A stretch of 64,000 nucleotides of DNA. Origin: Nonlabens marinus S1-08. Its GTDB lineage: Bacteria > Bacteroidota > Bacteroidia > Flavobacteriales > Flavobacteriaceae. The translations under genes were made by a program, and so were the position numbers. Location: NCBI RefSeq assembly GCF_000831385.1, contig NZ_AP014548.1:2595779-2659778 (forward strand), written 5' to 3'. Below, piece by piece: positions 1,937-62,284 of this stretch; position 1 is the first letter of the stretch; the number at the start of each line of letters is the position of its first letter. The notes beneath the pieces were generated by a model, which ran no database searches, was not told the DNA's origin, and saw only the letters and a list, made by a program, of their open reading frames with translations.

Positions 1937-1956
1937 TTCGCTTTCGCGAAAGCGAA
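1937..1956. repeat. Dispersed palindrome, copy 1 (intergenic)
   Basis: Exact 20-base form TTCGCTTTCGCGAAAGCGAA, 34 bases after the serine hydrolase stop and 49 before the DUF937 start, between co-directional genes. There is no T-run on either side, so it is not a terminator. Confidence 0.95.
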
Positions 1957-2004
1957 CTAAGCCTCAAAATTGTCGTAACTTAATCACTCAATCTATTTTA
2001 CTAT

Positions 2005-2643
2005 ATGGCTTCAATTTTAGACCTACTGCAAACCGAAATGGGACAAACCCTTATCAATGGTGCTGCCAAAAAAGTGAATACAACTCCTGACAATACGGCA
2101 AATGTACTGTCACAGGCCATGCCCTTAATTTTAGGTGCCATGCAACGTAATGCCAAAACACCACAAGGAGCAGCGTCGTTATCAAATGCATTATCTGACC
2201 CGAAACATAACGGTAGTATGCTAGAAATGCTGGATAGCCTTTTCGGTGATGGGCCTGGAAGTCCAGAAGAATTAGAACAAGATGGTGCTGGAATATTGAA
2301 ACATGTGCTAGGTAACAAACAGTCCCACGTGGAGAGCGCCATATCGACTTCTAGCGGCGTCGATGCTCAGTCTGTTGCACAAATTATTAAAATTGCCGCG
2401 CCCATCATCATGGGATTGTTAGGCAAGCAAAAACAGGAGAAACAAATAAGCAAGAATGGAGTCGGTGATCTGATAGGTTCTGTGTTAGGGCAATCTGGTG
2501 ATCACGATTCGTCGTTTTTGACAACAATTCTAGATGCTGATGGTGATGGCAGCATGATTGATGATGTAGCTGGTATGGTTTTAGGCAGTAATGGAAAGAA
2601 AAAAGGCCTGGGTGGTATGCTAGGTGGATTATTTGGGAAATAG
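2005..2643 (+). CDS. DUF937 domain protein
   Basis: A 212-aa protein with the DUF937 (YidB-like) arrangement: an N-terminal helical repeat region (MASILDLLQTEMGQTLINGAAKKV), a central acidic linker, and a glycine/methionine-rich C-terminus with GGMLGGLFGK. A DxDGDG element (ADGDGSMIDD) near residues 175-184 resembles a calcium-binding loop but may be chance. It is probably cytoplasmic: no signal peptide or membrane segment. Function of the family is unknown. It is followed after 6 bases by a lipoprotein gene and is likely cotranscribed with it. Confidence 0.8.
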   Translation: MASILDLLQTEMGQTLINGAAKKVNTTPDNTANVLSQAMPLILGAMQRNAKTPQGAASLSNALSDPKHNGSMLEMLDSLFGDGPGSPEELEQDGAGILKHVLGNKQSHVESAISTSSGVDAQSVAQIIKIAAPIIMGLLGKQKQEKQISKNGVGDLIGSVLGQSGDHDSSFLTTILDADGDGSMIDDVAGMVLGSNGKKKGLGGMLGGLFGK

Positions 2644-2649
2644 AAACTT

Positions 2650-3060
2650 ATGCGCAATTTAGCTGCTTCATTACTCTTTTTGATTGTCATCGTGATTTTT
2701 GCTAGTTGCGGTGGTTCTAAAGATTTCCCAGTTGACGAGGTTTCTGGCGTTGCAAAAGATACCATTCGTATTGCAAACGATAGTCTAGAGTACGAGATCA
2801 TCATTATAGAAATAGGGTTTAACTCTTGGCTTGCAACGCAACCCCCTAGAGGATACTATACTCAGAGTAGTATGGATATTAGTAATGATTTTAAGGTCAC
2901 CGAGTATAACTTGAGAGCCAACGATCCATTGCGTTATGGAGCAAATCTCTATCCATTTAGAATTGATTATGACAGGAATGTAGATTATGGCTATGAAGTA
3001 ACTTACTTACTTTTTAATTACTTTAAATTCTTTGAAGAGCGGTACAATCAACGTCTGTAA
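2650..3060 (+). CDS. DUF6146-family lipoprotein
   Basis: A 136-aa protein with a type II signal peptide: hydrophobic stretch 4-16 and lipobox FASC with Cys at residue 20, followed by Gly-Gly-Ser. The mature domain (YEIIIIEIGFNSWLATQP, then FRIDYDRNVDYGYEVTYLLFNYF) matches a small family seen in flavobacteria that I recall as DUF6146. It is expected to sit in the outer or inner membrane as a lipoprotein. Function is unknown. The spacing to its neighbours (6 and 14 bases) suggests one operon with the DUF937 gene and the next membrane protein. Confidence 0.75.
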   Translation: MRNLAASLLFLIVIVIFASCGGSKDFPVDEVSGVAKDTIRIANDSLEYEIIIIEIGFNSWLATQPPRGYYTQSSMDISNDFKVTEYNLRANDPLRYGANLYPFRIDYDRNVDYGYEVTYLLFNYFKFFEERYNQRL

Positions 3061-3074
3061 ACTATTTTTGCAGC

Positions 3075-3596
3075 ATGCAAAAATTAAAAGACCGCTGGGA
3101 AATAACTAAAGACTGGCAACTCGTTTATATTATTTTGGGAATCATCGGGCTCCTTGCTTGCGGCTATTTTGTAGCGACTAAACTGATTCCTTCGACTTTC
3201 GAAGAGGTAACCTATGAATATCTGTTTGTCGCTTTAGTAACGCTAATCAATGCCTACGTGTTTTACAAAATCACGATGTGGTTATTTGTGAAGCTACAAC
3301 CTAAATGGAAGGTGGAGAAGAGATGGGAATTAATCGCCATTTTTCTGGTTTTTGCAATTACAGGGTCTGCATCTGCCAGGGTTTCTGGACCTGTATTAGA
3401 ATGGATAGGAATGGATCGAGAAACTACTAACGCCTGGATTTTTTGGCCTATCCGACTGCTCATCATCTTTCCATTTTACCAAGTTTTATTAGTAGCAATG
3501 GGTTGGATATTTGGTCAGTTTGAATTCTTCTGGGCATTTGAAAAGAAGATGTTGCGCAGATTCGGAATCAAGCTGGATAAGAACTTAGAAGCTTAA
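3075..3596 (+). CDS. Four-helix inner-membrane protein (DUF6787-like)
   Basis: A 173-aa integral membrane protein with hydrophobic segments near residues 17-36, 49-69, 87-105 and 125-146. Conserved-looking basic/aromatic motifs (KLKDRWEITKDWQLVYI and VEKRWELIAIFLVFAITGSASA) recur at the start of two helical pairs, which looks like an internal duplication of a KxRWE unit. Similar flavobacterial proteins are annotated only as unknown (DUF6787, from memory). It ends 44 bases before a bidirectional terminator. Confidence 0.7.
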   Translation: MQKLKDRWEITKDWQLVYIILGIIGLLACGYFVATKLIPSTFEEVTYEYLFVALVTLINAYVFYKITMWLFVKLQPKWKVEKRWELIAIFLVFAITGSASARVSGPVLEWIGMDRETTNAWIFWPIRLLIIFPFYQVLLVAMGWIFGQFEFFWAFEKKMLRRFGIKLDKNLEA

Positions 3597-3640
3597 AATA
3601 ATAGACTTAATTAATTCTCTCTAAAAAGATTTTAATCATA

Positions 3641-5769: not shown

Positions 5770-8226
5770 ATGACTAAAAAATACTTGGTCCTTGTTTGTA
5801 TTTTGATAAGTTCCGCTTTCGCGAAAGCGCAATCCTCAAACATAGATACCACAATTATCAAACGTAAGTCCTACAAGGCTACTAGAGTAACTACAGAACC
5901 CGAAATTGATGGGAAGCCATTTGAAGACTTTTGGGCTAATATACCAGCTGGCGGGAACTTCAGGATGATAGAACCTACCAGCGGACTGCCAGAGAGGGAA
6001 ACTCACAAAACAGAATTCAAAGTAGCCTATGATGATGACGCTTTGTATGTCGCCGGCTACATGTACGATAGTAATCCTTCACAAATTGCAAGACAATTTT
6101 CACAGCGTGATGAGGTGTTTGCACAAGCGGATTTATTCGGTTTTTTTATAAATACCTACAACAATCAAATCAATCAAACTAGATTTTACGCCACAAGTGC
6201 TAATAGTCTAGGGGATTCCGTAGCAGAAAATGGAAGGGATGATTTTAGTTTCAATGTAGTTTTTAGATCTGAAGCTACAATAGATGAAAACGGTTGGTAT
6301 GTGGAAATGCGTATTCCTTATAGAACCTTACGATTTAATGAGGCTCCTGTACAAGACTGGAGTTTTCAAGTTTATAGACAAATCAGGCATTTGAATGAAG
6401 AGTATTCCTATAATTACATAGATAGGACTCGCGGAAGTTCTTCACAGTACGACGCCTTGCTTACTGGAATTAAAAATATTAATCCACCACTGCGCTTAAA
6501 TTTATATCCATTTGCTCAAGGGAGTTACACCACGTTTGATGGTACGACTACTTCTAATATTTCTGCAGGAATGGATTTGAAGTATGGAATCAATGAGGCC
6601 TTTACACTAGATGCTACGTTAATTCCAGATTTTGGCCAGGTGGCTTTTGATCAAGTGCGATTGAATTTAGGCCCTTTTGAACAAACCTTTGGTGAGAATA
6701 GAGCGTTTTTTACAGAAGGAACCGATCTTTTTAATAAAGGTGGGCTATTTTTCTCAAGACGTATAGGTCAATCACCTACAGGATCAGGAAGAATTGAGTT
6801 ATTTGCTGATGAGGATATCATTGACAACCCAGATGCCTCTAAACTCTTGAATGCGGTAAAAGTAACGGGTAGAAATCGTAACGGGCTAGGTATAGGTTTT
6901 CTGAATGCTATTACAGAGCGAACTGAAGCCACCGTTGAGAATAGTTTGTCTGGCGAGCGCCGTAATGTATTGACAGAGCCACTTACAAATTACAATGTTT
7001 TTGTTCTAGATCAACAATACGGGAGTAATTCCTCTGTATCCTTTGTTAATGCAAGTACCTTGCGCGATGGTAGTTTTACAGATGCTAATGTTACCGCACT
7101 TGTTGTAGATCATAATGATAGGGACCTTACCTATAATTATGGAGCCGAATTGAAAATGAGTAATCGATTCACCCCAGATGGAACTGTAACAGGTTATAAT
7201 ACGGAGTTGGATTGGAGGAAAACCAGTGGGAGCTGGCGCCCACGATTATCTCATGATTTTGTAAGTGAAGACTGGAATCCTAACGATTTAGGAAGAAACT
7301 TTAGAACCAATTTCCAACAATTTGGAGGTGAGATTGAATACAATCAATTTGTTCCTACCGGAATTTTCAATAGTTATAGTGTAGAACTTGGTGCTAGTCA
7401 CCGCAGGTCAGCTGATCCAGATTTTCACATTAATAGTGGAGCTAGAATCAATGCTCGATTTAGAACTAGGGAGCGAAATGCTTTCGGTGTGGATGCGAAT
7501 GTCAACACTCGGAATCTAGATCGTTTTGAGTCTAGAATTGATGGCCTCAATGTGCGATATGCTGCTAGTCAATCTTTTGGTGGTTTTATATCCACAGACT
7601 ACCGCAAAAAGTTTGCAGTAGATGTACGAGCAAATTATTTCTATCTCTTTTCTGATCCAGAAAAAGGATACAGCTACAATATTGCTCCACGATACAGATT
7701 CTCAGATAAATTTTTACTGGTATATAGATTCAACTGGAATAAAAACGATCAAAGAATAAGTTACGTAGCTCGCACTAACGATCGCACAACGAGTATTTTA
7801 AGCCGCAGAGACACCCATAGTGTAGAGAATCAGCTTTCTGGAACCTACAATTTTGACAACAAGCAAGCACTAAGTCTTTCCTTCAGAAACTTCTGGTCCA
7901 GAGCTAGATTTAGTAGAGATTTTGAAGAATTGCAAGACGACGGTACCACCACAGACAGTGATTTTGAGCTTGCAGAAAACTCCAATCCAGATGCTAACTT
8001 TAACGTGTGGAACCTTGATTTATCTTATAGATGGAGATTTGCACCAGGTAGTGAAGCAACTTTATTATATCGCAATAGCATCTTCAACTTTGACAATCAA
8101 GGTAGTATTGAATTTAATGATAGCTTGAACGATCTATTCATGGAACCCGTGAGACATAATGTGTCACTTCGTATTTCTTATTTTCTTGATGTCAACGATG
8201 CTAAAAGCTGGTTCCGTTCCGCTTAA
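5770..8226 (+). CDS. DUF5916 outer-membrane protein with CBM9-like N-domain
   Basis: An 818-aa secreted protein (823 aa if read from 5755). The signal peptide ends in SSAFAKAQ, and its last part is encoded by a copy of the dispersed palindrome. Residues about 40-230 look like the carbohydrate-binding family-9-type domain found in front of DUF5916 (EIDGKPFEDFW, KVAYDDDALYVAGYMYD, NGWYVEMRIPYRTLRF). The rest alternates short beta strands rich in aromatic and Asn/Asp/Arg residues and ends in the style of an outer-membrane barrel. Function of the family is unknown; a role in surface glycan or polymer binding is an inference. The following ABC ATPase gene begins 21 bases after the stop. Confidence 0.85.
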   Translation: MTKKYLVLVCILISSAFAKAQSSNIDTTIIKRKSYKATRVTTEPEIDGKPFEDFWANIPAGGNFRMIEPTSGLPERETHKTEFKVAYDDDALYVAGYMYDSNPSQIARQFSQRDEVFAQADLFGFFINTYNNQINQTRFYATSANSLGDSVAENGRDDFSFNVVFRSEATIDENGWYVEMRIPYRTLRFNEAPVQDWSFQVYRQIRHLNEEYSYNYIDRTRGSSSQYDALLTGIKNINPPLRLNLYPFAQGSYTTFDGTTTSNISAGMDLKYGINEAFTLDATLIPDFGQVAFDQVRLNLGPFEQTFGENRAFFTEGTDLFNKGGLFFSRRIGQSPTGSGRIELFADEDIIDNPDASKLLNAVKVTGRNRNGLGIGFLNAITERTEATVENSLSGERRNVLTEPLTNYNVFVLDQQYGSNSSVSFVNASTLRDGSFTDANVTALVVDHNDRDLTYNYGAELKMSNRFTPDGTVTGYNTELDWRKTSGSWRPRLSHDFVSEDWNPNDLGRNFRTNFQQFGGEIEYNQFVPTGIFNSYSVELGASHRRSADPDFHINSGARINARFRTRERNAFGVDANVNTRNLDRFESRIDGLNVRYAASQSFGGFISTDYRKKFAVDVRANYFYLFSDPEKGYSYNIAPRYRFSDKFLLVYRFNWNKNDQRISYVARTNDRTTSILSRRDTHSVENQLSGTYNFDNKQALSLSFRNFWSRARFSRDFEELQDDGTTTDSDFELAENSNPDANFNVWNLDLSYRWRFAPGSEATLLYRNSIFNFDNQGSIEFNDSLNDLFMEPVRHNVSLRISYFLDVNDAKSWFRSA
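5814..5829. repeat. Dispersed palindrome, copy 2 (in coding sequence)
   Basis: Exact 16-base core CGCTTTCGCGAAAGCG inside the DUF5916 gene, read as A-F-A-K-A at the predicted signal-peptidase site. Confidence 0.95.
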
Positions 8227-8916: not shown

Positions 8917-9676
8917 AAAAGAACTCAAAGAATTTCTTGACCATAAGGTAGAAGTCTACAACACTCCAGACTTTATTCCACACGACCCCATTCAGATTCC
9001 GCACAGGTATTCTGATCCTAAAGACATAGCGATATCTGGATTTCTAGTGGCAACTATTGCGTGGGGAAACCGTAAATCCATCATCAATAATTCGAACAAG
9101 TTGATGGATCTGATGGACGATTCTCCTGCTGATTTTATCAGCAACTTTCAAGAATCCGATTTAGCTCAGTTTGACGACTTTGTACATCGCACCTTTAATG
9201 GTGAAGATTGCAAGATGTTTTTAAGAGCATTGCAGGATATTGAGTTAAAAGATGATGGATTAGAGCACGCTTTCGCGAAAGCGTACTCCACTTCTACCCA
9301 CCTGCAAGAAGGTATTTCTAAATTTAAACAGCGGTTTTTTGAAGTGGACCACCTGGCAAGAACCCAAAAACACGTAAGCGACCCGATGAAGAACAGCAGC
9401 GCAAAACGAATCAATATGTTCCTGCGCTGGATGGTACGCAAGGATCAAAACGGAGTTGATTTTGGGATATGGGACCAAATACCCATGAGTGCCCTTTCCT
9501 TACCGCTGGACGTTCATACTGGTAATATTTCTAGAAAATTGAAGTTGCTCAAACGCAAACAGAACGATGCTAAAGCGGTGCTAGAGTTAGATCAAGCACT
9601 GCGCAAATTAGATCCAATTGATCCAGTTAAATACGATTTTGCACTGTTCGGGTTAGGAGCTTTTAAGGAATTATAA
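8909..9676 (+). CDS. TIGR02757 family protein
   Basis: A 255-aa protein of the TIGR02757 family. Typical segments are the N-terminal [50 protein letters not shown], and the C-terminal DVHTGNISRKLKLLKRKQND with LDPIDPVKYDFALFG. The MFLRWMVRKD and PLDVHTGNISRKL elements resemble helix-hairpin-helix DNA glycosylases, but no enzyme activity is established for the family. It is cytoplasmic. It overlaps the upstream ABC gene by 8 bases. A palindrome copy adds HAFAKAY near residue 120. The next gene has its own promoter. Confidence 0.85.
   Translation: MNKKELKEFLDHKVEVYNTPDFIPHDPIQIPHRYSDPKDIAISGFLVATIAWGNRKSIINNSNKLMDLMDDSPADFISNFQESDLAQFDDFVHRTFNGEDCKMFLRALQDIELKDDGLEHAFAKAYSTSTHLQEGISKFKQRFFEVDHLARTQKHVSDPMKNSSAKRINMFLRWMVRKDQNGVDFGIWDQIPMSALSLPLDVHTGNISRKLKLLKRKQNDAKAVLELDQALRKLDPIDPVKYDFALFGLGAFKEL
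9268..9283. repeat. Dispersed palindrome, copy 3 (in coding sequence)
   Basis: Exact 16-base core inside the TIGR02757 gene, read in frame as A-F-A-K-A. Confidence 0.95.
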
Positions 9677-9748: not shown

Positions 9749-11650
9749 ATGCTTTTTAAAAACCCCACAGTACTTTACGGGCTTTTGTTTCTACTCGTTC
9801 CGATTATTGTTCACCTTTTCCAATTAAGAAAGTTTAGAAAAGTTGCTTTTAGCAACGTGGCATTTTTAAAGCCTCTCTTGACTCAAACTCGTAAAAGCAG
9901 AACTCTTAAAAAGTGGCTTACACTGTTTGCTCGACTACTTGCGGTTGCTTGTGTTGTTATTACTTTTGCGCAGCCGTTTTTTCCTTCAATTACGGATTCT
10001 CCTGCAGACGATTCCTTGATCGTTTACCTAGACAACTCCTACAGCATGCAAGCTAAAGGTATAGATGGCGTGTTGTATCAAAATGCAGTGAATCAACTGA
10101 TAGAAAAACTACCTAGCGATCTCAACTTGAGCGTATTCACTAATGACCAGGTGTATAAAAATGTCTCCCGACAAGAGATTGCTAATGAGTTACTCAATGC
10201 AACCTACGCTCCTACCGCTTTATCTAATGAGCAGATTCTACTTAAAGCACAATCTCTTTTAGGAACTCAAGACCAGAAGGCAACGCTTCTCTGGATTTCA
10301 GATTTTCAGAGAAGTGGAGAACAGCCTTTTCAAGGAAATGGAGATCAATTAAAAACAGAATTGGTAAAATTAGAAGCTGTACAAAACCAAAATATCAGCA
10401 TTGATAGCGCTTATATTACCGTGAACGATGCCTCTGAAAGGTTTGTTGACGTATTCATTACCGCTAATTATCAAATAGATGCGCCAGTAACAGTAAGCTT
10501 GTATAACGACAACATATTGCTTGCCAAAACCACTGCATCGCTAACAAACCAAAACGGGAGTGCCCAATTTAAGATTCCAGCAAATACAGTCCTCAACAGT
10601 TATCTCGAAATTGTAGATGAGGGACTCAAGTTCGATAACCAGCTGTTCCTGTCAACAAATAAACGGGAAAAAATTAAAGTGTTGCACGTTAATGACAGCG
10701 GCAATGACTTTTTGAAAAATATTTATACGAGCGATGAGTTTGATTATCAAAATACTACATTCTCTCAACTCAATTACAATAGCATTAAGGACCAGGATGT
10801 AGTTGTTGTCAATGAAGTGAATACCTTACCATCTAATTTTGCAGTAGAGCTTAATAAATTCATGTCGGCTGGAAAAACTTTGGTAGTGATCCCTTCACTC
10901 AGCGGTCAAGGCTACAGCGCGTTGAATGGCGCAGGGAATCCGCAATCCTTGCCTGTCGAGAAGCGCATCGTTAGCATCAATTTTGACCACCCTTTGCTAC
11001 GAGATGTTTTCAGTAAGCGAGTTACCAACTTTCAATATCCTAAGGTGGAGAATATCGCTTTCGCGAAAGCGTCACTCAACAAAATTCTATCTTTTGAAGA
11101 TGGATCATCCTTTTTGTGGCAAGATGGAAACACTTTCTTTTTTGCAGCACCATTGAATGAAGGGAATTCCAATTTTCAAAATTCGCCACTAGTAGTACCT
11201 ATTTTTTACAAACTTGGTTTGAGAAATAGAGAGTCAGGAAACCTCTATCAACAATTAGGAAAAAACAATCAGGTCACCCTTCCTATAAAATTAGAACAAG
11301 ATCAAATTGTAGAATTAGCACTAGGCGAACAACGGTTGATTCCAGAACAGCGCGCCTATGATTCCTATGTAGAATTGCAAACTGGTACAGAGGTTTCTCA
11401 ACCTGGAACCTATCAAGTACTTCTAAAAAATGAGCCTATTGCCTCTTTATCCTTCAATGTAACAAGAGAGGAAAACAAGAATGATTTTTACAACGTGGAA
11501 GAATTAGGTGCCAACACTTTATCTAGCGTATCTGAATTTGTACAGCAATATAAGGAACGCGCGCAAGCTTCAGACTTATGGAAATTCTTTCTTACTGGTG
11601 CCTTATTTTTTCTAATTTGCGAACTGATGATTTTAAAATTTATCAAATGA
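9749..11650 (+). CDS. BatA-domain membrane protein (aerotolerance-type)
   Basis: A 633-aa protein. Residues 1-78 form the BatA/aerotolerance N-terminal domain: a first helix (LYGLLFLLVPIIVHLFQLRKFRKVAFSN, given here only in outline), a basic stretch, and a second helix ending at AQPFFP. A von Willebrand A-like segment follows with YLDNSYSMQ (a degenerate metal-site motif), then beta-rich domains, and a final membrane helix (about residues 612-630). It is anchored in the inner membrane facing the periplasm. Family members sit in Bat operons, but here the neighbours are a dihydroorotase homologue and an esterase, so a stress role is not supported by context. The stop overlaps the next start in ATGA. 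Confidence 0.82.
   Translation: MLFKNPTVLYGLLFLLVPIIVHLFQLRKFRKVAFSNVAFLKPLLTQTRKSRTLKKWLTLFARLLAVACVVITFAQPFFPSITDSPADDSLIVYLDNSYSMQAKGIDGVLYQNAVNQLIEKLPSDLNLSVFTNDQVYKNVSRQEIANELLNATYAPTALSNEQILLKAQSLLGTQDQKATLLWISDFQRSGEQPFQGNGDQLKTELVKLEAVQNQNISIDSAYITVNDASERFVDVFITANYQIDAPVTVSLYNDNILLAKTTASLTNQNGSAQFKIPANTVLNSYLEIVDEGLKFDNQLFLSTNKREKIKVLHVNDSGNDFLKNIYTSDEFDYQNTTFSQLNYNSIKDQDVVVVNEVNTLPSNFAVELNKFMSAGKTLVVIPSLSGQGYSALNGAGNPQSLPVEKRIVSINFDHPLLRDVFSKRVTNFQYPKVENIAFAKASLNKILSFEDGSSFLWQDGNTFFFAAPLNEGNSNFQNSPLVVPIFYKLGLRNRESGNLYQQLGKNNQVTLPIKLEQDQIVELALGEQRLIPEQRAYDSYVELQTGTEVSQPGTYQVLLKNEPIASLSFNVTREENKNDFYNVEELGANTLSSVSEFVQQYKERAQASDLWKFFLTGALFFLICELMILKFIK
11056..11071. repeat. Dispersed palindrome, copy 4 (in coding sequence)
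   Basis: Exact 16-base core inside the BatA-like gene, read as I-A-F-A-K-A-S. Confidence 0.95.
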
Positions 11651-13249: not shown

Positions 13250-13915
13250 ATGAAAACAGATTTAAGTCTCAAATACATCAGCCGTTGGGCTGCCGATAAA
13301 AACGCTCCTTTATTATTGCTCATCCATGGATACGGCAGCAATGAAGAAGATTTATTCTCCTTTGCACCACAAATGAGCAATGACATGCACATCGTTTCTT
13401 TACGAGCGCCGTACGATATGCCTCCTTATGGTGCAGCCTGGTACGCAATAGATTACACTGCAGATGAAGGAAAGTTTTCTGATTTAAATCAAGCGCGTCA
13501 AAGTATGAATCTCATTAAAAAGTTTATTCAAGAGCTGCTCGCGAAACACAAATTAGAGCCTTCCAGCATCAACGCTTTAGGTTTTTCTCAAGGAGCTATT
13601 TTATCCATGGGTTTAGCCTTGTCTAATCCGTCCTTTTTCAAAAACGTAGTTGGAATGTCGGGCTATTTAAATACAGATCTGGTGGAGAATTATGATTCTT
13701 TAGAAGTTCGCTTTCGCGAAAGCGAAAACCCCACCAATTTCTTTGTATCCCACGGTACTATGGATCAAGTGATCCCGTTTTCTTGGGCCATTAAAACCCA
13801 GCCTATTTTAGAAAAACTAAACGCTGATTATGTATTCAAACAATATCCTATAGGTCACGGCGTATCACCAGATAATTTTCACGATATGAAAGCGTGGCTA
13901 GAGGCACGGCTATAA
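13250..13915 (+). CDS. Phospholipase/carboxylesterase family hydrolase
   Basis: A 221-aa alpha/beta hydrolase of the PF02230 type. It shows LLIHGYGSNEEDLFSFAPQ (oxyanion region), the nucleophile elbow LGFSQGAILS, an Asp in GTMDQVIPFSWA, and the catalytic His in YPIGHGVSPDN. No signal peptide; cytoplasmic. It probably hydrolyses short acyl esters, lysophospholipids or acyl-thioesters; substrate unknown. It is the last gene of the long forward operon that begins at the BatA-like gene, and it directly abuts the next, convergent gene (stop at 13915, neighbour's stop at 13916). A palindrome copy inserts VRFRESE in a stretch between the nucleophile and the Asp. Confidence 0.88.
   Translation: MKTDLSLKYISRWAADKNAPLLLLIHGYGSNEEDLFSFAPQMSNDMHIVSLRAPYDMPPYGAAWYAIDYTADEGKFSDLNQARQSMNLIKKFIQELLAKHKLEPSSINALGFSQGAILSMGLALSNPSFFKNVVGMSGYLNTDLVENYDSLEVRFRESENPTNFFVSHGTMDQVIPFSWAIKTQPILEKLNADYVFKQYPIGHGVSPDNFHDMKAWLEARL
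13707..13726. repeat. Dispersed palindrome, copy 5 (in coding sequence)
   Basis: Full 20-base form within the esterase gene, here in the frame that reads R-F-R-E-S. Confidence 0.95.
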
Positions 13916-16732: not shown

Positions 16733-17176
16733 AATCTGCTCGCTGTGTTCCTTAGTCTTCACTTTAGTAATTACTTCTTCTATTTTTCCATCTTCATCGA
16801 TAACAAAAGTCGTACGGTGGATTCCATCGTATTCTTTACCCATGAACTTTTTAGGTCCCCAAACGCCATAGGCATTTAGTAATTCATGATCCTCATCAGC
16901 TAGAAGATCGTAGGGCAGTTCATATTTTTCTTTAAAATTGGATTGACGTTTTTGGCTATCGGCACTTGCACCTAGTATTTCGTATCCGCTTTCGCGAAAG
17001 CGATCTACATTATCTCTCAAATTACAAGCTTCTACAGTACATCCTGGTGTGCTGGCTTTAGGATAGAAAAACAAAACCAACTTCTTACCTTTGAAATCTG
17101 AAAGGGAAACTGTTTTACCGTCTTGATTAGGAATTGAAAAATCTGGAGCTTTATCTCCTGCTTTTAATGTTGTCAT
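16727..17176 (-). CDS. bcp: Thioredoxin-dependent thiol peroxidase (BCP/PrxQ)
   Basis: A 149-aa peroxiredoxin. The start at 17176 ([13 protein letters not shown]) is chosen over an upstream extension to 17302 that encodes no family sequence. Peroxidatic Cys46 and resolving Cys51 lie in [13 protein letters not shown], the PrxQ arrangement with five residues between them. It reduces hydrogen peroxide and organic hydroperoxides using thioredoxin, in the cytoplasm. A palindrome copy encodes DRFRESGYE right after the active-site helix, a position where orthologues have a similar D-x-x-D/E-x-F stretch, so it fits the fold. It diverges from nth across 29 bases. Confidence 0.95.
16987..17002. repeat. 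Dispersed palindrome, copy 6 (in coding sequence)
   Basis: Exact 16-base core in bcp, read on the reverse strand as R-F-R-E-S. Confidence 0.95.
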
Positions 17177-18908: not shown

Positions 18909-21713
18909 ATGGCAGAAAAGATCATTTTCGACAACATTGATACCCTAAGTCCTAAAAGGAACATCTTAGTAAAGGGCGCTGAATTACATAATCTTAAGAA
19001 GCTGAATGCTGTCATTCCTAGAAATGAAATGGTAGTCATTACTGGATTATCTGGAAGTGGCAAATCCTCTCTAGCTTTTGACACTTTGTATGCAGAAGGT
19101 CAACGCAGGTATGTAGAAAGTCTTTCCTCCTATGCTCGGCAATTCCTAGGCCGATTGAACAAGCCAAAAGTAGAATACATCAAAGGTATCGCTCCGGCTA
19201 TTGCTATAGAGCAAAAGGTAAACTCTACTAACCCACGTAGTACAGTGGGAACAACGACGGAGATTTATGATTATCTGAAATTACTGTTTGCTCGTATTGG
19301 CAAAACCTATTCCCCTGTATCAGGAAATGAAGTGAAAAAAGATACAGTAACTGACGTGATAAACTATATCAAGGAGCAGGAAGATGGGACTAAAATGCTT
19401 CTTACCACAAGACTGATTGTAAAAGGAAAACGCGACGTCCCACAACAGCTTGCGGTTTTGTTACAGCAGGGTTTCACTCGTATTAAAGTTAATGGTGAAG
19501 TTCACCGTATTGATGAGAATGACCTAAGTTTTACAAACAAGGACAAAGTCTTTATCGTGATTGACCGTATTATCAAACGAGACAATAAAGATTTTTATAA
19601 CCGCCTGGCAGATGCGATAGACACCGCATTTTTTGAAGGTAAAGGTGTAGCTTATGTGGAATATTTAGACGGTAGCAAGTCAAGGGAATTTACCAACAAG
19701 TTTGAACTGGATGGTATGGAATTCTTGGAACCTAACCCTAACCTCTTCAGTTTTAATAATCCATATGGAGCCTGCCCTAAATGTGAGGGTTATGGTGATG
19801 TGATAGGGATTGATGAAGATCTGGTCATTCCTAACACGGCGCTATCCGTTTATGAAAGTGCTGTATTTCCTTGGCGAGGTGATAGCATGAGTTACTATAA
19901 AGATCAGCTGATCAAAAATGCCGATAAATTTGATTTTCCAATTCACCGACCTTGGTTTGAATTGACTGACAAACAAAAAAGCTTAGTCTGGGATGGAAAC
20001 AAATACTTTGCAGGAATACATTCCTTTTTTGAAGAGCTTGAAGCAAAAGCATACAAAATTCAAAATCGGGTGATGTTATCCCGGTACCGCGGAAAAACTA
20101 AATGTTCGCTATGTAAAGGAAAGCGATTGCGACCTGAAGTAAACTATATCAAAGTCAATGGTACCACCATTACTGATCTTGTAGAATTGCCCATCAAGGA
20201 ACTGCGTGTTTTCTTTCAGGAACTCACTCTGGACGACACGCAAAAGGTCATCGCAAAAAGACTACTTAAAGAAATACATAGTCGATTAGAATTTCTATCT
20301 GATGTAGGACTGGACTATTTGACGCTCAACCGTAAATCCAATTCCTTATCTGGTGGGGAGTCCCAGCGTATCAACCTCGCAACCTCATTAGGGAGTAGCT
20401 TAGTAGGAAGTATGTATATTTTGGATGAGCCTAGTATTGGCCTGCATCCACGGGATACCAAACGATTGATTAAGGTATTGAAAAACTTGCGAGACCTTGG
20501 GAACACAGTAATCATCGTAGAGCATGATGAAGAAATCATGCAAGCGGCAGATCGCATCATTGATATAGGCCCAGAAGCTGGAACTCACGGTGGCGAGGTG
20601 GTTGCTGCAGGAACTCTTGCAGAAATTTTGAAATCGACCAGTTTAACTGCTCAATATTTAAATGGGACGATGGAAATCCCGCTTCCGCGAAAGCGAAGAA
20701 AGCACAAGTATCACGTAGACATCAAAGGCGCAAGACAAAACAACCTTAAGAACATTGATGTTAGTTTTCCATTGGGAGTTTTGACCATGGTAACTGGCGT
20801 CTCGGGTAGCGGGAAATCTACTCTTGTGAAAAAAATATTGTATCCAGCCATGCTCAAAAAGCTAGGTGGCTATGGTGCAAAAGCTGGTCAGTACACTGAT
20901 ATCAGCGGTAAGTTTGAAAATGTAAAAACTATTGAATTTATAGATCAGAATCCTATAGGGCGCAGTTCTAGATCCAATCCTGTGACCTATATCAAGGCTT
21001 ATGATGATATACGCGGCTTACTGGCTTCTCAAAAGCTCTCCAAAATAAGAAACTACCAACCGAAACACTTCTCCTTCAATGTTGACGGAGGTCGATGTGA
21101 AACTTGTAAAGGAGATGGCGAGGTAACTATCGAGATGCAATTCATGGCAGATGTTACCTTGATTTGTGAAACCTGTAACGGAAAACGATTTAAAAAAGAG
21201 ATCCTGGAGGTCCAGTTTGAAAGTAAAAACATTGACGATATACTTAACTTAACGATCAATGATGCGATGGACTTTTTTGAATCCAAGGGACAGGATAAAA
21301 TTGTACGGAAGATCAAGCCTTTACAAGATGTAGGATTGGGCTACGTAACTTTAGGACAAAGTAGTTCTACCCTATCAGGTGGAGAAGCACAGCGCATCAA
21401 ACTTGCCAGTTTTCTAGTCAAAGGCACCACTAGCGATAAAACGCTATTCATCTTTGACGAACCTACAACAGGATTACACTTTCACGATATCAATAAATTA
21501 CTAGACAGTTTTAATGCGTTAATTGAAAAAGGACACAGCGTCATTGTAATTGAACACAATATGGATTTAGTCAAATGTGCCGACTATGTCATTGACTTAG
21601 GACCAGAAGGCGGTGCTGAAGGTGGTTACCTTGTAGCTGCTGGAACACCGGAGGAAGTTGCCCTAGTTGAGAAGAGTTATACCGCCCCTTTTATTGCAGA
21701 AAAACTAAATTAG
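18909..21713 (+). CDS. uvrA: Excinuclease ABC subunit A
   Basis: A 934-aa UvrA of normal length; start taken at the ATG 18909 rather than the GTG at 18903. It has two ABC modules: Walker A GLSGSGKSS and GVSGSGKST, signatures SLSGGESQRI and TLSGGEAQRI. Zinc-binding Cys pairs lie in CPKCEGYGD, CSLCKGKR and CETCKGDGE...CETCNGKRF. It scans DNA for bulky damage and loads UvrB (encoded at 52.2 kb, unlinked). A one-base variant of the dispersed palindrome encodes PLPRKRRK in the linker between the two halves. The gene diverges from the sigma-factor gene. Confidence 0.97.
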   Translation: MAEKIIFDNIDTLSPKRNILVKGAELHNLKKLNAVIPRNEMVVITGLSGSGKSSLAFDTLYAEGQRRYVESLSSYARQFLGRLNKPKVEYIKGIAPAIAIEQKVNSTNPRSTVGTTTEIYDYLKLLFARIGKTYSPVSGNEVKKDTVTDVINYIKEQEDGTKMLLTTRLIVKGKRDVPQQLAVLLQQGFTRIKVNGEVHRIDENDLSFTNKDKVFIVIDRIIKRDNKDFYNRLADAIDTAFFEGKGVAYVEYLDGSKSREFTNKFELDGMEFLEPNPNLFSFNNPYGACPKCEGYGDVIGIDEDLVIPNTALSVYESAVFPWRGDSMSYYKDQLIKNADKFDFPIHRPWFELTDKQKSLVWDGNKYFAGIHSFFEELEAKAYKIQNRVMLSRYRGKTKCSLCKGKRLRPEVNYIKVNGTTITDLVELPIKELRVFFQELTLDDTQKVIAKRLLKEIHSRLEFLSDVGLDYLTLNRKSNSLSGGESQRINLATSLGSSLVGSMYILDEPSIGLHPRDTKRLIKVLKNLRDLGNTVIIVEHDEEIMQAADRIIDIGPEAGTHGGEVVAAGTLAEILKSTSLTAQYLNGTMEIPLPRKRRKHKYHVDIKGARQNNLKNIDVSFPLGVLTMVTGVSGSGKSTLVKKILYPAMLKKLGGYGAKAGQYTDISGKFENVKTIEFIDQNPIGRSSRSNPVTYIKAYDDIRGLLASQKLSKIRNYQPKHFSFNVDGGRCETCKGDGEVTIEMQFMADVTLICETCNGKRFKKEILEVQFESKNIDDILNLTINDAMDFFESKGQDKIVRKIKPLQDVGLGYVTLGQSSSTLSGGEAQRIKLASFLVKGTTSDKTLFIFDEPTTGLHFHDINKLLDSFNALIEKGHSVIVIEHNMDLVKCADYVIDLGPEGGAEGGYLVAAGTPEEVALVEKSYTAPFIAEKLN
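20680..20695. repeat. Dispersed palindrome, degenerate copy (in uvrA)
   Basis: CGCTTCCGCGAAAGCG differs from the core by one base (T to C), which breaks the symmetry. It reads L-P-R-K-R and sits at the position expected from the regular spacing of the other copies. Confidence 0.75.
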
Positions 21714-41111: not shown

Positions 41112-41131
41112 TTCGCTTTCGCGAAAGCGAA
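41112..41131. repeat. Dispersed palindrome, copy 13 (intergenic)
   Basis: Full 20-base form between the HAD and CCG-protein genes, inside what is otherwise a tight reverse-strand operon. Confidence 0.95.
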
Positions 41132-45089: not shown

Positions 45090-45107
45090 TTCGCTTTCGC
45101 GAAAGCG
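45090..45107. repeat. Dispersed palindrome, copy 14 (in the amidase leader)
   Basis: Exact core at 45092-45107 with the TT extension on one side only. By the promoter call it is inside the untranslated leader of the amidase mRNA, where it could form an 8-base-pair-per-arm stem. Confidence 0.95.
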
Positions 45108-47959: not shown

Positions 47960-49417
47960 CTAAGCTTTCGGAATCTCCTTTAAAATCTCCTGAAGCAACT
48001 TCCAGAATTTCTGTACGGATTCAATTTCAACATGCTCATCAGGACTGTGCGCCCCACGTATGTTAGGCCCGAAGGAAATCATATCCAGTCCAGGATAACG
48101 CTCGCCTAGAATACCACATTCTAATCCTGCATGGCAAGCCACCACTCTAGGCACTGATTTGAACAGCTCTTCATATTTAGATTTGGCTACTTTTAAAATA
48201 GCACTGTCTGGTTTAGGCTCCCAACCTGGATAGTCACCAGAGAATGTCACTTCTACCCCATTCAATTCCATTACTCCACGCACACTCGCCTTCAAATCAT
48301 CCTTCACACTTTCTACTGACGAGCGTGTCAAACAAGCCACTTCTAGATTCCCATCCTTCAAGGTAACACGAGCTAGATTGTTACTGGCTTCTACCAGTTC
48401 TTCAAAATCTGGACTCCAGCGGTACACTCCATTGGGAATTCCCAGCAGCATATAAAGTAGGTGTTTGCTATGAGTATCGTCCAGCGCCGGTGCTGGATCT
48501 GCAGGCGTTATGCTGATGTTTAAATTTGGCTCCAGTGAATGGTACTCTTTTTCGATTGCAGTACGACACCTTTGAAAAGCACTGAGAATGTCGTTTTTTT
48601 CGCTTTCGCGAAAGCGAACTATACTAACAGCTTCCCGCGGTATCGCATTTCTCAAACTACCGCCTTGAAATTCCTGAATGTGGATGGCGCCTTGGTTTTG
48701 CATCGCATCCATAAGTCTGGTGGCAATTTTATTAGCATTTCCCAATCCTTTATGGATGTCCATACCGCTATGACCACCTTTTAATCCTTTAACGGTAATT
48801 TTTTGCGTGATAAAATTCTCGCCTAAATCAGTCAAAGCGTAATTCTTCACACCAGTAACGTCGATCCCACCGGCGCAGCCTATGTCAATCTCGTCATCTT
48901 CCTCTGTATCCAGATTAAGCAAAATGGAGGAGGTAAGTATGTTCTTATCGAGCTCTTTAGCTCCAGTCATCCCTGTTTCTTCGTCGATGGTAAATAGGGC
49001 TTCTATCGCAGGGTGTGCAATATCAGTTGATGAAAGCAGCGCCATGATCGCGGCCACTCCCATACCATTATCAGCTCCCAGAGTGGTTCCATTTGCTTTT
49101 ACAATGTTGCCATCTACTTGCATTTCAATACCCTGATTGTCAAAATCAAAGTTGGTATCGTTATTTTTTTGATGTACCATATCCAGGTGAGATTGTAAAA
49201 TCACGCTTTGGCGATCTTCCATTCCTGTGGTCGCTGGCTTCTTAATGATCACGTTCCCAATGGCGTCTTCTAAAACCGTAAGATCAAGACTATTCCCAAA
49301 GTCGACCATGAATTGACGGACCCGCTCCTCTTTTTTAGAAGGTCTGGGAACCGCGTTTAAGTCGGCAAAATGATTCCAAACGGATTGTGGTTCTAACTGT
49401 CTTACTTGGTCACTCAT
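47960..49417 (-). CDS. pepD: Aminoacyl-histidine dipeptidase (PepD/Xaa-His)
   Basis: A 485-aa M20 metallopeptidase. Metal and catalytic elements: LQSHLDMVHQKN, GADNGMGVAA, IDEETGMTGAKEL (catalytic Glu and ligand), HSGMDIHKGLGNA in the lid domain, and CHAGLECGILGERYPGLDMISFGP with the last His ligand in GAHSPDEHVEI. It hydrolyses carnosine-type Xaa-His and other dipeptides in the cytoplasm. Length is normal for PepD. A palindrome copy encodes VRFRESEKND in the lid domain. Confidence 0.95.
   Translation of the reverse strand: MSDQVRQLEPQSVWNHFADLNAVPRPSKKEERVRQFMVDFGNSLDLTVLEDAIGNVIIKKPATTGMEDRQSVILQSHLDMVHQKNNDTNFDFDNQGIEMQVDGNIVKANGTTLGADNGMGVAAIMALLSSTDIAHPAIEALFTIDEETGMTGAKELDKNILTSSILLNLDTEEDDEIDIGCAGGIDVTGVKNYALTDLGENFITQKITVKGLKGGHSGMDIHKGLGNANKIATRLMDAMQNQGAIHIQEFQGGSLRNAIPREAVSIVRFRESEKNDILSAFQRCRTAIEKEYHSLEPNLNISITPADPAPALDDTHSKHLLYMLLGIPNGVYRWSPDFEELVEASNNLARVTLKDGNLEVACLTRSSVESVKDDLKASVRGVMELNGVEVTFSGDYPGWEPKPDSAILKVAKSKYEELFKSVPRVVACHAGLECGILGERYPGLDMISFGPNIRGAHSPDEHVEIESVQKFWKLLQEILKEIPKA
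48599..48618. repeat. Dispersed palindrome, copy 15 (in coding sequence)
   Basis: Full 20-base form in pepD, read on the reverse strand as R-F-R-E-S. Confidence 0.95.
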
Positions 49418-52177: not shown

Positions 52178-52193
52178 CGCTTTCGCGAAAGCG
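52178..52193. repeat. Dispersed palindrome, copy 16 (intergenic)
   Basis: Exact core, with the AA extension on the right only, 30 bases before the uvrB start. Confidence 0.95.
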
Positions 52194-56926: not shown

Positions 56927-58216
56927 ATGATTATCATTACCCGTTTACGTTCGTTTTTTAATATTGTCACGAGTAGTATAGCCTTCTACCCTACTTTTTA
57001 TGCTGTATCCGCGGTGATTTTCGGTTTTGTCATGAAAACTGCCGAGGCAATGGGGGTTTCTCGATTCCTTCAAGAAAACGCCTCCTATCTAGTCGTCAAC
57101 GATATCGACACGGCGCGAAATGTTCTTACCACATTAATTGCTGGAGGCCTGAGCATGCTGGTATTCTCTTTTTCTATGGTAATGCTTTTACTAAGCCAAG
57201 CGGCAGCCAATTATTCACCAAGAGTACTGCCCAGTTTGATTTCAAACCGCCGTCACCAGACCATATTAGGTACGTTCCTCGCGATGATCCTTTACAATAT
57301 CATCACAGTCATAGGGCTACAACCACATGGCGATGATTATCAACTTCCAGGATTTTCAGTACTGATAGGTATTGCTTTTGCAGTGCTCGCTTTAGCAGCT
57401 TTTGTCTACTTTATTCACAGCATATCCTCTAGCATACAGATCAATAATATATTGGAGAATATTTATTCGCTTTCGCGAAAGCGATTGCTTTTTCTAGTGG
57501 AAGAAAATAGATTCTCCAAAGATTTTGAGGATACAGACGACTGGCATACCATCAAAACTAACAGAAGCGGAACGATACAAAATATGAGTATCACAGGCTT
57601 AAAGGAGCTTGCTCGTGAATCAGAAACCAAGTTTGATATATTGATGTCTAAAGGCGAATACCTTTTTGAACATCAACCTCTAGTCAAATCAAAAAAAGAG
57701 TTAGATGAATCCGAGTTGGAAGAACTTTTCAAAAACTTCAATTATACGGAGTCCGAATTAGTGAGTGACAACTACATTATAGGATTCAAACAAATTACAG
57801 AAATAGGCATTAAAGCCATGTCGCCTGGAATCAATGATCCAGGAACAGCGCTGGATACCATTCACTACTTGACTGAATTGTTTGCCTTACGCATGCAAAA
57901 GGGCGATATAGGCGTGGTAGAAGATGAAGACGGGAATCCGGTTATCAATCTCAAAGTTATTGATTTCAAAACCCTAATGTATAATGTACTGGCACCTTTT
58001 CGCACCTATTGTAAGCATGACATAACAGTGATGCAAAAACTATTGGGCATGATCGCTTACCTGAAGACCCTAGATGCCGCAAACGATTCTTTTTATCAGG
58101 TGCTGGATCGAGAAGCCACCATGATGATTCAAGATGTCAATAGTGCCATAGAAAACCCTATTGATCTAGAAGTATTGCAAGGTATTTATGACAGAATGAA
58201 TATCCAGGAAACTTAA
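56927..58216 (+). CDS. DUF2254 membrane protein
   Basis: 429 aa with four membrane helices in the first 170 residues (about 12-40, 58-85, 105-128, 138-165). A cytoplasmic domain follows, with [26 protein letters not shown], the most recognisable motif of DUF2254. Function unknown; membership suggests a membrane-stress or transport role only loosely. A palindrome copy inserts [12 protein letters not shown] at the end of the last helix region. Its stop shares TTAA with the convergent panB stop. Confidence 0.87.
57468..57483. repeat. Dispersed palindrome, copy 17 (in coding sequence)
   Basis: Exact core in the DUF2254 gene, the only exact copy read in the third frame, as S-L-S-R-K-R. Confidence 0.95.
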
Positions 58217-59088: not shown

Positions 59089-59562
59089 ATGATGAAATAT
59101 GCACTGTTATTTGTAGGGCTTATCGCTTTCGCGAAAGCGAACTCTCAAGAAGTTACATCAACCGCTAGCAGCATGGTACACTTACAGTCTCATCCTGCAG
59201 AAAAAGTTGTGGAGGACTTTTTTGAAAGTTTTCACGCTCAAGACACTACAGCATTGCGAGCATTTATGGCAGAAGGTGCCGCTCTCAAGTCCTTATCCAT
59301 AAAAGGAGAGCAGCGTCAGGTTTCTTCAACTTCACTGGATCAATTTTTAACTTCCATCGCCTCCATTCCAGCGGGAGTGGACTTTCAAGAGGAAGTGACA
59401 GGAATCACCAGTTTAGGTAATGAATCTATCGCCAGTGTTCATGCTGATTATATTTTTCATCTAAATGGTAAGAAGACGCACACGGGTACCAATGTATTTA
59501 CCGTGGTATGGAAAGAAAATAGGTGGTTAATTATCCAAATAACGGACACCCGAATCTATTAA
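59089..59562 (+). CDS. Secreted NTF2-like (SnoaL/DUF4440-type) protein
   Basis: 157 aa from 59089 (ATG 59092 also possible). The signal peptide MMKYALLFVGLIAFAKANSQ ends in a peptide written by the palindrome. The mature part has the NTF2-like plan: VEDFFESFHAQDTTALRAFMAEGAAL (first helices), a middle with FLTSIASIPAGVDF, and closing strands with THTGTNVFTVVWKENRWLIIQITDT. The family binds or converts small hydrophobic ligands, but no catalytic residues are assignable. Periplasmic or surface. Divergent from panB. Confidence 0.82.
   Translation: MMKYALLFVGLIAFAKANSQEVTSTASSMVHLQSHPAEKVVEDFFESFHAQDTTALRAFMAEGAALKSLSIKGEQRQVSSTSLDQFLTSIASIPAGVDFQEEVTGITSLGNESIASVHADYIFHLNGKKTHTGTNVFTVVWKENRWLIIQITDTRIY
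59124..59139. repeat. Dispersed palindrome, copy 18 (in coding sequence)
   Basis: Exact core in the NTF2-like gene, read as I-A-F-A-K-A-N at the signal-peptidase site, as in the GH3 fusion gene. Confidence 0.95.
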
Positions 59563-61075: not shown

Positions 61076-61571
61076 GTAGTGCTGTCTTACTTGAAATAAA
61101 TTCTTTGAGCTTTAGCGCATCCTCTGGATCTAAACCAGATAAGCTTAGATCTGAAGCACTACCACCGGCAGTGTAAATTTCTAATTCACATAGTGTGAAC
61201 AATCGATCAATGGGTCCATCCTTGATCTCGGTATGCTGGATGCGGTTAAATGGCACTGTAATTTCATGATGGAATACCCAACCATGTTTATAGGTAATAT
61301 CATGCTCTCTCAATACATAACCGCGGACAAAGTATTCTTTATAAGAGAAAAATAAAGTAATCAATAAAAGTACAATCCAGGCTGCTAGACTGGCCCAAAA
61401 GATCCAAAGTGGATCTACCAAAAAAGCAATCACGATCACTCCTATTAGCAGTGGTATGAAAAACAAAACCTTAGCAATCAGCTTTTTATTCAAAAATCGC
61501 TTAGGATGTTTTTTGAAATCTGATTCTTCCACGGCGGGTAAGTCGCTTGCTAGTACCTGAACATTAGTCAT
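61068..61571 (-). CDS. PH-domain membrane protein, YdbS-like
   Basis: 167 aa with two membrane helices (about 32-50 and 55-73), followed by one bPH2 domain: LREHDITYKHGWVFHHEITVPFNRIQHTEIKDGPIDRLF (in outline), then ELEIYTAGGSASDLSLSGLDPEDALKL. The pairing of a one-domain and a multi-domain bPH2 protein is the standard YdbS/YdbT arrangement. Function unknown. Cotranscribed with the MazG-like gene upstream (1-base gap). Confidence 0.88.
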   Translation of the reverse strand: MTNVQVLASDLPAVEESDFKKHPKRFLNKKLIAKVLFFIPLLIGVIVIAFLVDPLWIFWASLAAWIVLLLITLFFSYKEYFVRGYVLREHDITYKHGWVFHHEITVPFNRIQHTEIKDGPIDRLFTLCELEIYTAGGSASDLSLSGLDPEDALKLKEFISSKTALHA

Positions 61572-61572
61572 A

Positions 61573-61965
61573 TCACTTGTATTTGCTCAATATCTTGCCA
61601 AAATCTGGCTTAAAATAATCCGGACCCTTAAGAACCTTGCCGTCCTCCCTATAAATAGGCTCTCCATCAGCTCCTAACTTACTCATGTTTGATCGCTGAA
61701 TCTCTTCAAAAACATCGGTAATGACTTCCTGCATACCGTGTTCTATAATAGTACCGCATAAGATGTACAACATGTCACCTAAGGCATCAGCGACCTCTAT
61801 AAGATCATCATTTTTTGCAGCTTCTAGATATTCTTCATTTTCCTCTCGCATCAACTCATAACGCAATAATTTGCGTTCTAGAGAGATTTGAACAGTAGGC
61901 TCTTCTTGAATATTCAGTTTGAAGGCTTTGTGGAATTTTTGGACGGCATCAATGCTATTCTTCAT
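61573..61965 (-). CDS. MazG-like nucleotide pyrophosphohydrolase
   Basis: 130 aa, all-helical, with the metal motif E-E-N-E-E-Y (MREENEEYLEAAKNDD) followed by E-x-x-D in IEVADALGDMLYILCG, as in the MazG/phosphoribosyl-ATP pyrophosphatase superfamily. The tail has the YREDGKVLKGPDYFKPDF element common in flavobacterial and phage relatives. It probably hydrolyses a non-canonical NTP or dNTP to the monophosphate, so a house-cleaning role is likely. Cytoplasmic. Confidence 0.88.
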   Translation of the reverse strand: MKNSIDAVQKFHKAFKLNIQEEPTVQISLERKLLRYELMREENEEYLEAAKNDDLIEVADALGDMLYILCGTIIEHGMQEVITDVFEEIQRSNMSKLGADGEPIYREDGKVLKGPDYFKPDFGKILSKYK

Positions 61966-62011
61966 GGGTAGTTGGTCATTTGTATCGTAATTTTACGAAA
62001 AAATCAGCACT

Positions 62012-62233
62012 ATGTTATTGCCCCTGCCTTTATTAAAAGATCCTATGTTCTCACAAGGTCAGATCATCTTTGCTATAGTGTTCTTTGTCGCCTTTGTCAT
62101 CTTGATCACGTTCATGTATGGAAAAGACAAATTACTACACCGCAAAAACTACAAGGGAGTGAAGTGGATTCTAGTGGGGTTTTTAGCTTTTTTCCTATTG
62201 TTGCTTGCGATAAAATTCGGGTTAAAGCAATAA
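62012..62233 (+). CDS. Small two-helix membrane protein
   Basis: 73 aa (62 if begun at ATG 62045, MFSQGQIIF), with membrane helices at about 16-36 and 50-69 and a basic loop between (GKDKLLHRKNYKGVKW). The topology resembles a conserved-looking small inner-membrane protein of flavobacteria without a named family. It starts 46 bases from the divergent MazG-like gene. A palindrome copy follows 30 bases after the stop. Confidence 0.72.
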   Translation: MLLPLPLLKDPMFSQGQIIFAIVFFVAFVILITFMYGKDKLLHRKNYKGVKWILVGFLAFFLLLLAIKFGLKQ

Positions 62234-62262
62234 ATTTAAAGGTGACGGTATCATTCTGATAA

Positions 62263-62284
62263 GTTCGCTTTCGCGAAAGCGAAC
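62263..62284. repeat. Dispersed palindrome, copy 19 (intergenic)
   Basis: Full 20-base form plus one more G/C pair on each side (22 bases), between convergent genes, 36 bases ahead of the terminator A-run. Confidence 0.95.

Follow-up and report, generated by a model that had tools for sequence, protein, structure and literature searches.

A strict 14-bp palindrome with G-poor arms, regularly spaced along the chromosome of Nonlabens marinus and common to related flavobacteria

This paper deals with a perfect 16-base palindrome, CGCTTTCGCGAAAGCG, which is present in 19 exact copies plus one one-base variant in a 64-kb stretch of the Nonlabens marinus S1-08 chromosome (hereafter the window, meaning that stretch at its full length). 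Several described systems come close to it. The sites of Noc and parS are dimer-bound palindromes of 14–16 bp, those of Noc being found chromosome-wide, and the Chi sites of RecBCD/AddAB are short and directional, occur roughly once per few kb, and show a strand-polar G/C asymmetry. The DNA uptake sequences (DUS) of Neisseriaceae and the uptake signal sequences (USS) of Pasteurellaceae are described, in the relevant sections of PMC1939737 and PMC7811141, as lineage-specific, fairly evenly spaced, and present in hundreds of copies or more, both genic and intergenic; the same section of PMC1939737 states that DNA uptake enhancing sequences (DUES) are not palindromes. The highly iterated palindrome HIP1 of cyanobacteria is an 8-mer, GCGATCGC, linked in PMC4390886 to methyltransferases of its inner sequences. 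Finally, an 18-nt palindrome of Caldithrix abyssi has 38 exact copies, which its authors, in the section concerned, call intergenic and related to repetitive extragenic palindromes (REP) (PMC5317091).

The flavobacterial motif resembles DUS and USS in copy number, in lying both inside and between genes, in its fairly even spacing, and in its restriction to a lineage. It differs from them in being a perfect palindrome of 14–16 bp with polar G-poor arms and hardly any near-misses, and in that 6/6 site-rich flavobacterial genomes have no PF00437 ATPase above the Pfam cut-off. With HIP1 it has in common that a perfect palindrome is highly iterated throughout a clade, but the flavobacterial unit is 14–16 bp long and of another sequence, its inner words are unenriched, and no tested methyltransferase family is common to all its carriers. 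The Caldithrix palindrome is likewise long and rather uniform along the genome, whereas N. marinus has 653 copies, mainly in open reading frames (ORFs). Compared with the Noc and parS sites, the sequence is different, the copies are many more, and there is no extra site-linked ParB paralogue. Chi is matched in density (roughly one per few kb) and in strand-polar asymmetry, but the flavobacterial palindrome is asymmetric on both sides. The extragenic location of REP is not matched (13/20 window copies are coding), nor is the T run that follows the hairpin of an intrinsic terminator. Failure to belong to one of these systems does not bar the motif from working like one of them. No paper on the motif was found by exact-string and subject searches of the open-licence PMC literature (incompletely listed), and neither Nonlabens nor Dokdonia is named in the main text of the RepRanger survey (PMC12306157).

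A first-pass annotation of the window had reported the 19 exact copies and the variant at 20680. It rightly took the motif for a tag that is under selection throughout the genome and that, in the literature searched, has no assigned function. All 20 are present, 100 dinucleotide-preserving shuffles yield an expectation of 0 for the 16-mer, and no window position matches it with two or three mismatches. The whole genome (a single contig of 2,915,920 bp) holds 653 exact 16-mers, against 0.00 expected under a second-order Markov model of a 544-kb sample. The 784 matches at up to one mismatch include 131 one-base variants, which are thus not as common as the exact core, and the reversed 16-mer, used as a control, has no match in the genome. 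Over 544 kb there are 112 exact copies, 25 with one mismatch, 2 with two, and 9 with three; of the 25 single-mismatch copies, 15 deviate at the outermost base and nine at base six of the half-site. In a genome of another genus (G190) the outer base is free to vary: 240 kb hold only 6 exact 16-mers yet 28 14-mers, and the series is more graded (6 exact, 23 one-off, 13 two-off, and 5 three-off). Considering this outer-base variation in both genomes, the unit of the motif is a strict 14-bp palindrome, GCTTTCGCGAAAGC, with a preferred outer base, usually within CGC...GCG. The exact 14-mer is present 728 times in N. marinus, which amounts to one per 4.0 kb.

The spacing of the sites is far from random. 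The first 350 kb hold 81 exact sites, whose gaps have a coefficient of variation (CV) of 0.61, compared with 0.98 for random placement (5000 simulations, lowest value 0.71); in the window alone the CV is 0.31. Just one of these gaps is shorter than 1 kb, where 16.6 are expected, and of 20 stretches sampled around the chromosome none is without an exact site. Within the 350 kb, sites are missing for longest over 15.9 kb (228–244 kb; L324 2326–18206), the ribosomal protein operon, in which SecY, RpoA, L2, and S4 were identified. Apart from this, a site-free stretch of low GC content (30–33%; L325, about 4000–10000) is perhaps a recent insertion.

The sites are also conserved. When the window is compared with five relatives (72–74% identity), the 14-mer is kept in its window form in 70 of the 100 site-by-genome comparisons and not kept in 16, the remaining 14 being unalignable. 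Across 124 kb, at least two relatives allow scoring for 35 of 42 sites, and a site within one mismatch is kept in 118/139 comparisons; at one aligned position, two relatives (G306 and G299) have a site and N. marinus has none. Core columns of coding sites show identity in 104/120 cases for the outermost base and 112–118/120 for the inner ones (87–98%), against 72–75% for flanks at least 21 bases out; at intergenic sites the figure is 37–49/52. Loss appears to depend on the neighbours: sites with another site within 2 kb are lost in 15/47 comparisons and other sites in 6/92 (the relatives are not independent of one another), or, counted by site, in 7/13 versus 3/22 (Fisher p = 0.016). Sites lost at least once have a shorter nearest-neighbour distance (Mann–Whitney p = 0.009), and for coding sites alone the losses are 11/34 versus 1/74 (by site p = 0.010). 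Such neighbour-dependent loss suggests selection for coverage.

Neither the regular spacing nor this pattern of loss was part of the first-pass annotation, and the same goes for the G-poor arms on both sides of the core. Read outward 5' to 3', both arms lack G, strongly over about 17 bases (5–8% versus 15–19%) and more weakly to about 28. At positions 3–17, 18–28, and 41–80, G accounts for 5.4, 10.8, and 17.1% at intergenic and 7.4, 15.2, and 18.9% at coding sites of Nonlabens; the respective values for Dokdonia are 6.9, 11.3, and 14.7% (intergenic) and 8.1, 14.1, and 19.1% (coding). The lack of G is present in coding copies of each of the three reading frames and is weaker in G190. Positions 1–10 after the core are 43–48% A and 23–26% T (Nonlabens and Dokdonia sets), and near the core A is elevated every third base (positions 3, 6, 9, and 12), intergenic arms included. 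For intergenic arms, the A excess amounts to 0.181 over 56 Nonlabens sites and 0.199 over 27 Dokdonia sites, with maxima of 0.098 and 0.134, respectively, among 4000 shifted controls. Codon phase was rejected as the cause of this triplet period because the intergenic arms show it too. The inward strand, with its 3' end at the site, contains little C and is enriched in words such as GTTG, GATG, GTGG, and TGTTG. Arm sequence is not more conserved than the background (identity over the first 20 bases is 66–70% for coding and 46–67% for intergenic sites, and from base 21 on 72–75% and 68–75%); composition rather than exact sequence is kept.

The motif is abundant in few genera. A search of 299 family genomes, sampled from a larger group, found at least one exact 16-mer in 38; the 14-mer occurs at least once in 89 of the 395 genomes searched for it, but only six of these have more than 19 copies of the 14-mer, namely four Nonlabens, one Dokdonia (G206, 857 copies), and G190 of the third genus (408). 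All 23 Nonlabens genomes examined contain 180–737 exact copies each. A scan of named records found at least 111 matching stretches; among the 80 matches listed are 36 from Dokdonia, 27 from Nonlabens, 4 from Flavobacteria bacterium BBFL7 (presumably a Nonlabens, and counted as such), and 13 others. A uvrB tree built from 20 genomes places the eight site-rich ones on one side of a branch whose support (85/83) is not strong; Dokdonia and G190 are sisters (100/98), and three genomes without the motif in bulk (G076, G078, and G101) adjoin the site-rich group. Judging by this single-gene tree, the motif system likely had one origin in the site-rich group. Relative to Dokdonia, G190 has about half the site density, free outer bases, more two-mismatch copies, and a weaker arm asymmetry, as if the motif system were relaxing there. 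No comparable repeated palindrome of another sequence was seen in 12 other genera, each represented by one 20-kb stretch, from which a sparse motif could escape. A 20-kb stretch from one further genus (L273, G032:C1:100001-120000) contains 45 copies of a 12-mer, GGAACCAACGGA, which there is probably part of a repetitive gene.

Outside the site-rich group, the motif is found in shared DNA. Stretches from 11 of 33 site-poor genomes with an exact 16-mer were examined, and the copies lie in shared regions of copper/metal efflux, P-type ATPases, multicopper oxidase, ArsP permease, or TraG-type conjugation, with blocks 66–99.9% identical between genera; three shared-region stretches were assigned with Pfam (metal regions: L161 and L166) and the remaining ones by DNA similarity. 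In the metal-resistance stretches (L161–L171 and L173, from G078, G101, G087, G111, G285, G012, G144, G073, and G104; CusA-type efflux, P-type ATPases, multicopper oxidase, and ArsP permease), sites occupy corresponding places, and one intergeneric pair is 99.9% identical over 12.9 kb. Two genera share the TraG-type conjugation region (L172 and L178) at 91% identity over 11.1 kb, each version with one palindromic site. Site clusters in site-poor genera were considered as a reader locus and rejected, those examined being metal-resistance and conjugation regions. The arms of shared-region copies are poor in G and rich in C (G 8.1%, C 28.1% at positions 3–17, 24 sites), whereas nine sporadic matches in other records have balanced flanks (G 22.6%, C 24.8%), and the arms therefore help to separate genuine sites from chance matches.

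The Nonlabens phages P12024S and P12024L have no 14-mer in 71.4 kb, where about 18 would be expected at chromosomal density, and the closest they come to the 16-mer is at 4 and 5 mismatches. IMG/VR, on the other hand, yields 49 exact copies on 30 contigs. Site-bearing phage contigs include L199 and L182 (Mu-type portal and terminase genes) and L209 (capsid and tape-measure genes), and two of the six sites on a 37-kb viral contig lie inside portal and terminase ORFs. The viral arms in L184, L187, and L193 (spacing as in L209) have G at 2/30 bases, and the 44 distinct viral sites overall average 13.3% G and 24.1% C; on these figures, the viral set mixes real sites with others that probably arose by chance. 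BLAST with a 36-base site returned weak matches alone (E 1–5), in phages and plasmids.

The 20 window sites are listed in Table 1. According to the ORF calls, seven exact copies are intergenic (six in the full TTCGC...GCGAA form) and 12 lie in ORFs (three in the full form); since the one-base variant is also coding, 13/20 copies are coding and 7/20 intergenic. The first-pass annotation had counted eight intergenic and 11 coding copies. Its nine full-form copies, six intergenic and three coding, are borne out by the flanks, as is its view that decay affects the outer bases and spares the core; the difference of one may hinge on the choice of start codon, for example for the copy 10 bases inside ORF 43966–45117. 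The copies it placed are real, but it mixed two coordinate conventions, giving nine by the start of the 20-base form, whose cores begin two bases later (1939, 13709, 23604, 25010, 30055, 38485, 41114, 48601, and 62266). Among 366 Nonlabens and Dokdonia copies, 223 lie in long ORFs, 101 are intergenic, and 42 are ambiguous; the coding ones prefer one reading frame (139/223, both genera pooled).

Table 1. Palindromic sites in the 64-kb window (window coordinates; full form, TTCGC...GCGAA)
Feature	Position	Strand	Context and conservation
Exact site	1939..1954	.	Intergenic; full 20-base form 1937-1956
Exact site	5814..5829	.	Coding, frame AFAKA; kept in 5/5 relatives
Exact site	9268..9283	.	Coding, AFAKA
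Exact site	11056..11071	.	Coding, AFAKA; missing in 2/2 alignable relatives; closest neighbour 1.8 kb
Exact site	13709..13724	.	Coding, RFRES; full 20-base form
Exact site	16987..17002	.	Coding, RFRES
One-base variant CGCTTCCGCGAAAGCG	20680..20695	.	In UvrA-like gene; identical variant in 5/5 relatives
Exact site	23604..23619	.	Intergenic; full form; gone in 3/5 relatives
Exact site	25010..25025	.	Intergenic; full form; kept in 2/3 alignable relatives
Exact site	26641..26656	.	Coding, AFAKA; kept in 4/5 relatives
Exact site	30055..30070	.	Intergenic, between divergent ORFs; full form
Exact site	34549..34564	.	Coding, in bshA gene
Exact site	38485..38500	.	Coding, GH3/beta-lactamase-domain gene; full form
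Exact site	41114..41129	.	Intergenic; full form; gone in 3/5 relatives
Exact site	45092..45107	.	10 bases inside amidase-like ORF (43966-45117); kept in 5/5 relatives
Exact site	48601..48616	.	Coding, dipeptidase gene; full form
Exact site	52178..52193	.	Intergenic, upstream of uvrB
Exact site	57468..57483	.	Coding; gone in 2/5 relatives; neighbour at 1.66 kb
Exact site	59124..59139	.	Coding, AFAKA
Exact site	62266..62281	.	Intergenic; full form; example arms, the flanking 28 bases 62238-62265 and 62282-62309

Our tentative preference, to which we give less than an even chance, is that the motif serves as a chromosome-wide tag of self DNA in the exchange or repair of kilobase-sized fragments. 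We infer a dimeric protein as its reader, which would bind the palindromic core in double-stranded DNA, while the arms would help a polar process running outward or inward from the core. In this view, self DNA would be recognized through uptake, or recombination loading, of fragments carrying at least one site; a second site on the same fragment would then be dispensable, and DNA resident in the chromosome would gather sites. This agrees with the regular spacing and near absence of gaps below 1 kb, the 118/139 orthologous sites kept, the neighbour-dependent loss, and core columns that are 87–98% identical at coding sites. It also agrees with the absence of the 14-mer from two Nonlabens phages while 30 viral contigs hold 49 copies, with the confinement of the motif to one side of the uvrB branch, and with the presence of ComEC in 14/14 genomes. 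Riemerella columbina, placed in the Flavobacteriaceae by the authors concerned, is reported in the relevant part of PMC7965970 as naturally competent with a preference for its own DNA, which makes a sequence preference in relatives plausible. For Haemophilus, the corresponding section of PMC7811141 reports that a second USS within 100 bp brought no detectable extra uptake and draws no conclusion for wider pairs.

A number of observations weigh against such a self-DNA tag. Drift-and-drive models expect a graded series of intermediates, and near-misses are scarce (2 two-mismatch versus 112 exact copies in 544 kb). The palindromic core is unlike DUS and USS, and PF00437, the ATPase of type IV pili and of the type II secretion system, scores above the Pfam cut-off in 0/6 site-rich genomes (other pilus genes not searched) and in 1/15 genomes overall, the rest giving weaker matches only. 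The classic uptake sequence that the first-pass annotation had entertained loses ground on these same points. Neither ComEC nor RecA sets the site-rich genomes apart from the site-poor ones. Once one-mismatch sites are added, four of 99 gaps are below 1 kb (24.7 expected); the neighbour effect is absent in the nine noncoding sites (4/13 versus 5/18); and the 2-kb cut-off was picked after the window had been inspected, a cut-off of 2.5 kb giving a by-site p of 0.13. Exact cores with arms that are not clearly G-poor (4–8/30 G) are found in the Mu-type contigs L182 and L195. Lastly, most of the same evidence would be expected if the sites served chromosome structure alone.

That structural alternative is nearly as likely as the self-DNA tag. 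Here, a dimeric nucleoid-associated, loop-anchoring, or nucleoid-occlusion-type protein would sit every 3–4 kb, each stretch of chromosome needing an anchor. The palindrome suits a dimeric protein, and the gap CV (0.61 over 350 kb, 0.31 in the window), the neighbour-dependent loss, and the presence of at least one site in each of the 20 stretches round the chromosome all fit. Self-recognition in exchange or repair accounts for the spacing and redundancy, and chromosome architecture accounts for almost the same. The 15.9-kb gap tolerated over the ribosomal protein operon speaks against an obligatory anchor, the strand-polar, 3-base-periodic arms are left unexplained, and no additional ParB-like protein accompanies the sites. 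A ParB-domain protein is present in 15/15 genomes, mostly as a single copy, with extra matches in N. marinus and the site-poor G101 and G032; no additional paralogue tracks the sites among the 15, an ordinary ParB of changed specificity lying outside the search. The second ParB-domain protein of N. marinus, in a 616-aa open frame (G000:C1:1269093-1269371), is also found in a site-poor genus (G101:C1:2364602-2364880) and perhaps belongs to a mobile element.

A bidirectional, Chi-like hotspot is unlikely by comparison but is the sole surviving explanation that addresses the arms. A helicase–nuclease or site-specific nuclease would halt or cut at the palindrome, and RecA would be loaded onto the C-poor strand, whose 3' end lies at the site. 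Chi of E. coli is GCTGGTGG, which the GTTG, GATG, GTGG, and TGTTG words of the inward strand resemble; RecA binds three bases per monomer, which the triplet period of the arms would reflect, and in the intergenic arms of both genera that period exceeds all 4000 shifted controls. RecA is, however, an ordinary single copy in 14/14 genomes, and we know of no Chi that resembles a 14-bp palindrome.

An orphan methylation site of the HIP1 kind, another idea of the first-pass annotation, is very improbable. It would fit a palindrome that is highly iterated and common to a whole group of genera, a methyltransferase marking the inner TCGCGA or CGCG. Yet outside the sites the inner words are not enriched in N. 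marinus (544 kb), with 56 TCGCGA against 61 expected and 3 TTCGCGAA against 7.6; the 13 copies of TTCGCGAA in G190, against 4.3 expected, may be decayed sites. Nor is a methyltransferase common to all site-rich genomes in the two families searched: PF00145 (C5) is absent in 4/8 and PF01555 (N4/N6) in 2/8, G306 having neither. Equally improbable is a REP-like or selfish palindrome or a transcription terminator, for although 7/20 window copies are intergenic and a palindromic RNA could fold, most copies lie inside ORFs at orthologous places across species, one window copy sits between divergent ORFs, and an A-rich sequence rather than a T run follows the palindrome in Nonlabens and Dokdonia. As candidate readers, ParB, T2SSE/PilB, RecA, ComEC, and the C5 and N4/N6 methyltransferases were all rejected, as none separates site-rich from site-poor genomes; a reader protein was not found among these tested families (whole-genome gene content not compared).

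It is possible, if doubtful, that the motif represents a new class of chromosome element. This would be a bidirectional start or landing site of about 45–70 bp. A dimer would bind its palindromic core, and the two G-poor arms, phased in triplets, would steer some polar DNA transaction (RecA-type loading or the action of a translocase). Selection would favour coverage at one site per 3–4 kb, and the flavobacterial clade would mark its own chromosome in this way.

Chi, DUS/USS, the FtsK-orienting polar sequences (KOPS), and parS are chromosome-wide tags that each led to a DNA-reading machine. The flavobacterial tag is longer and stricter than these, carries polar arms, is regularly spaced, and is found in marine bacteria. 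It makes testable how flavobacteria in which no type-IV-pilus ATPase was detected might recognize DNA as their own, and also what HIP-like palindromes do. Core and arms together may, furthermore, serve as a fingerprint of DNA that was once resident in the group, such as transferred metal islands and some phage contigs.

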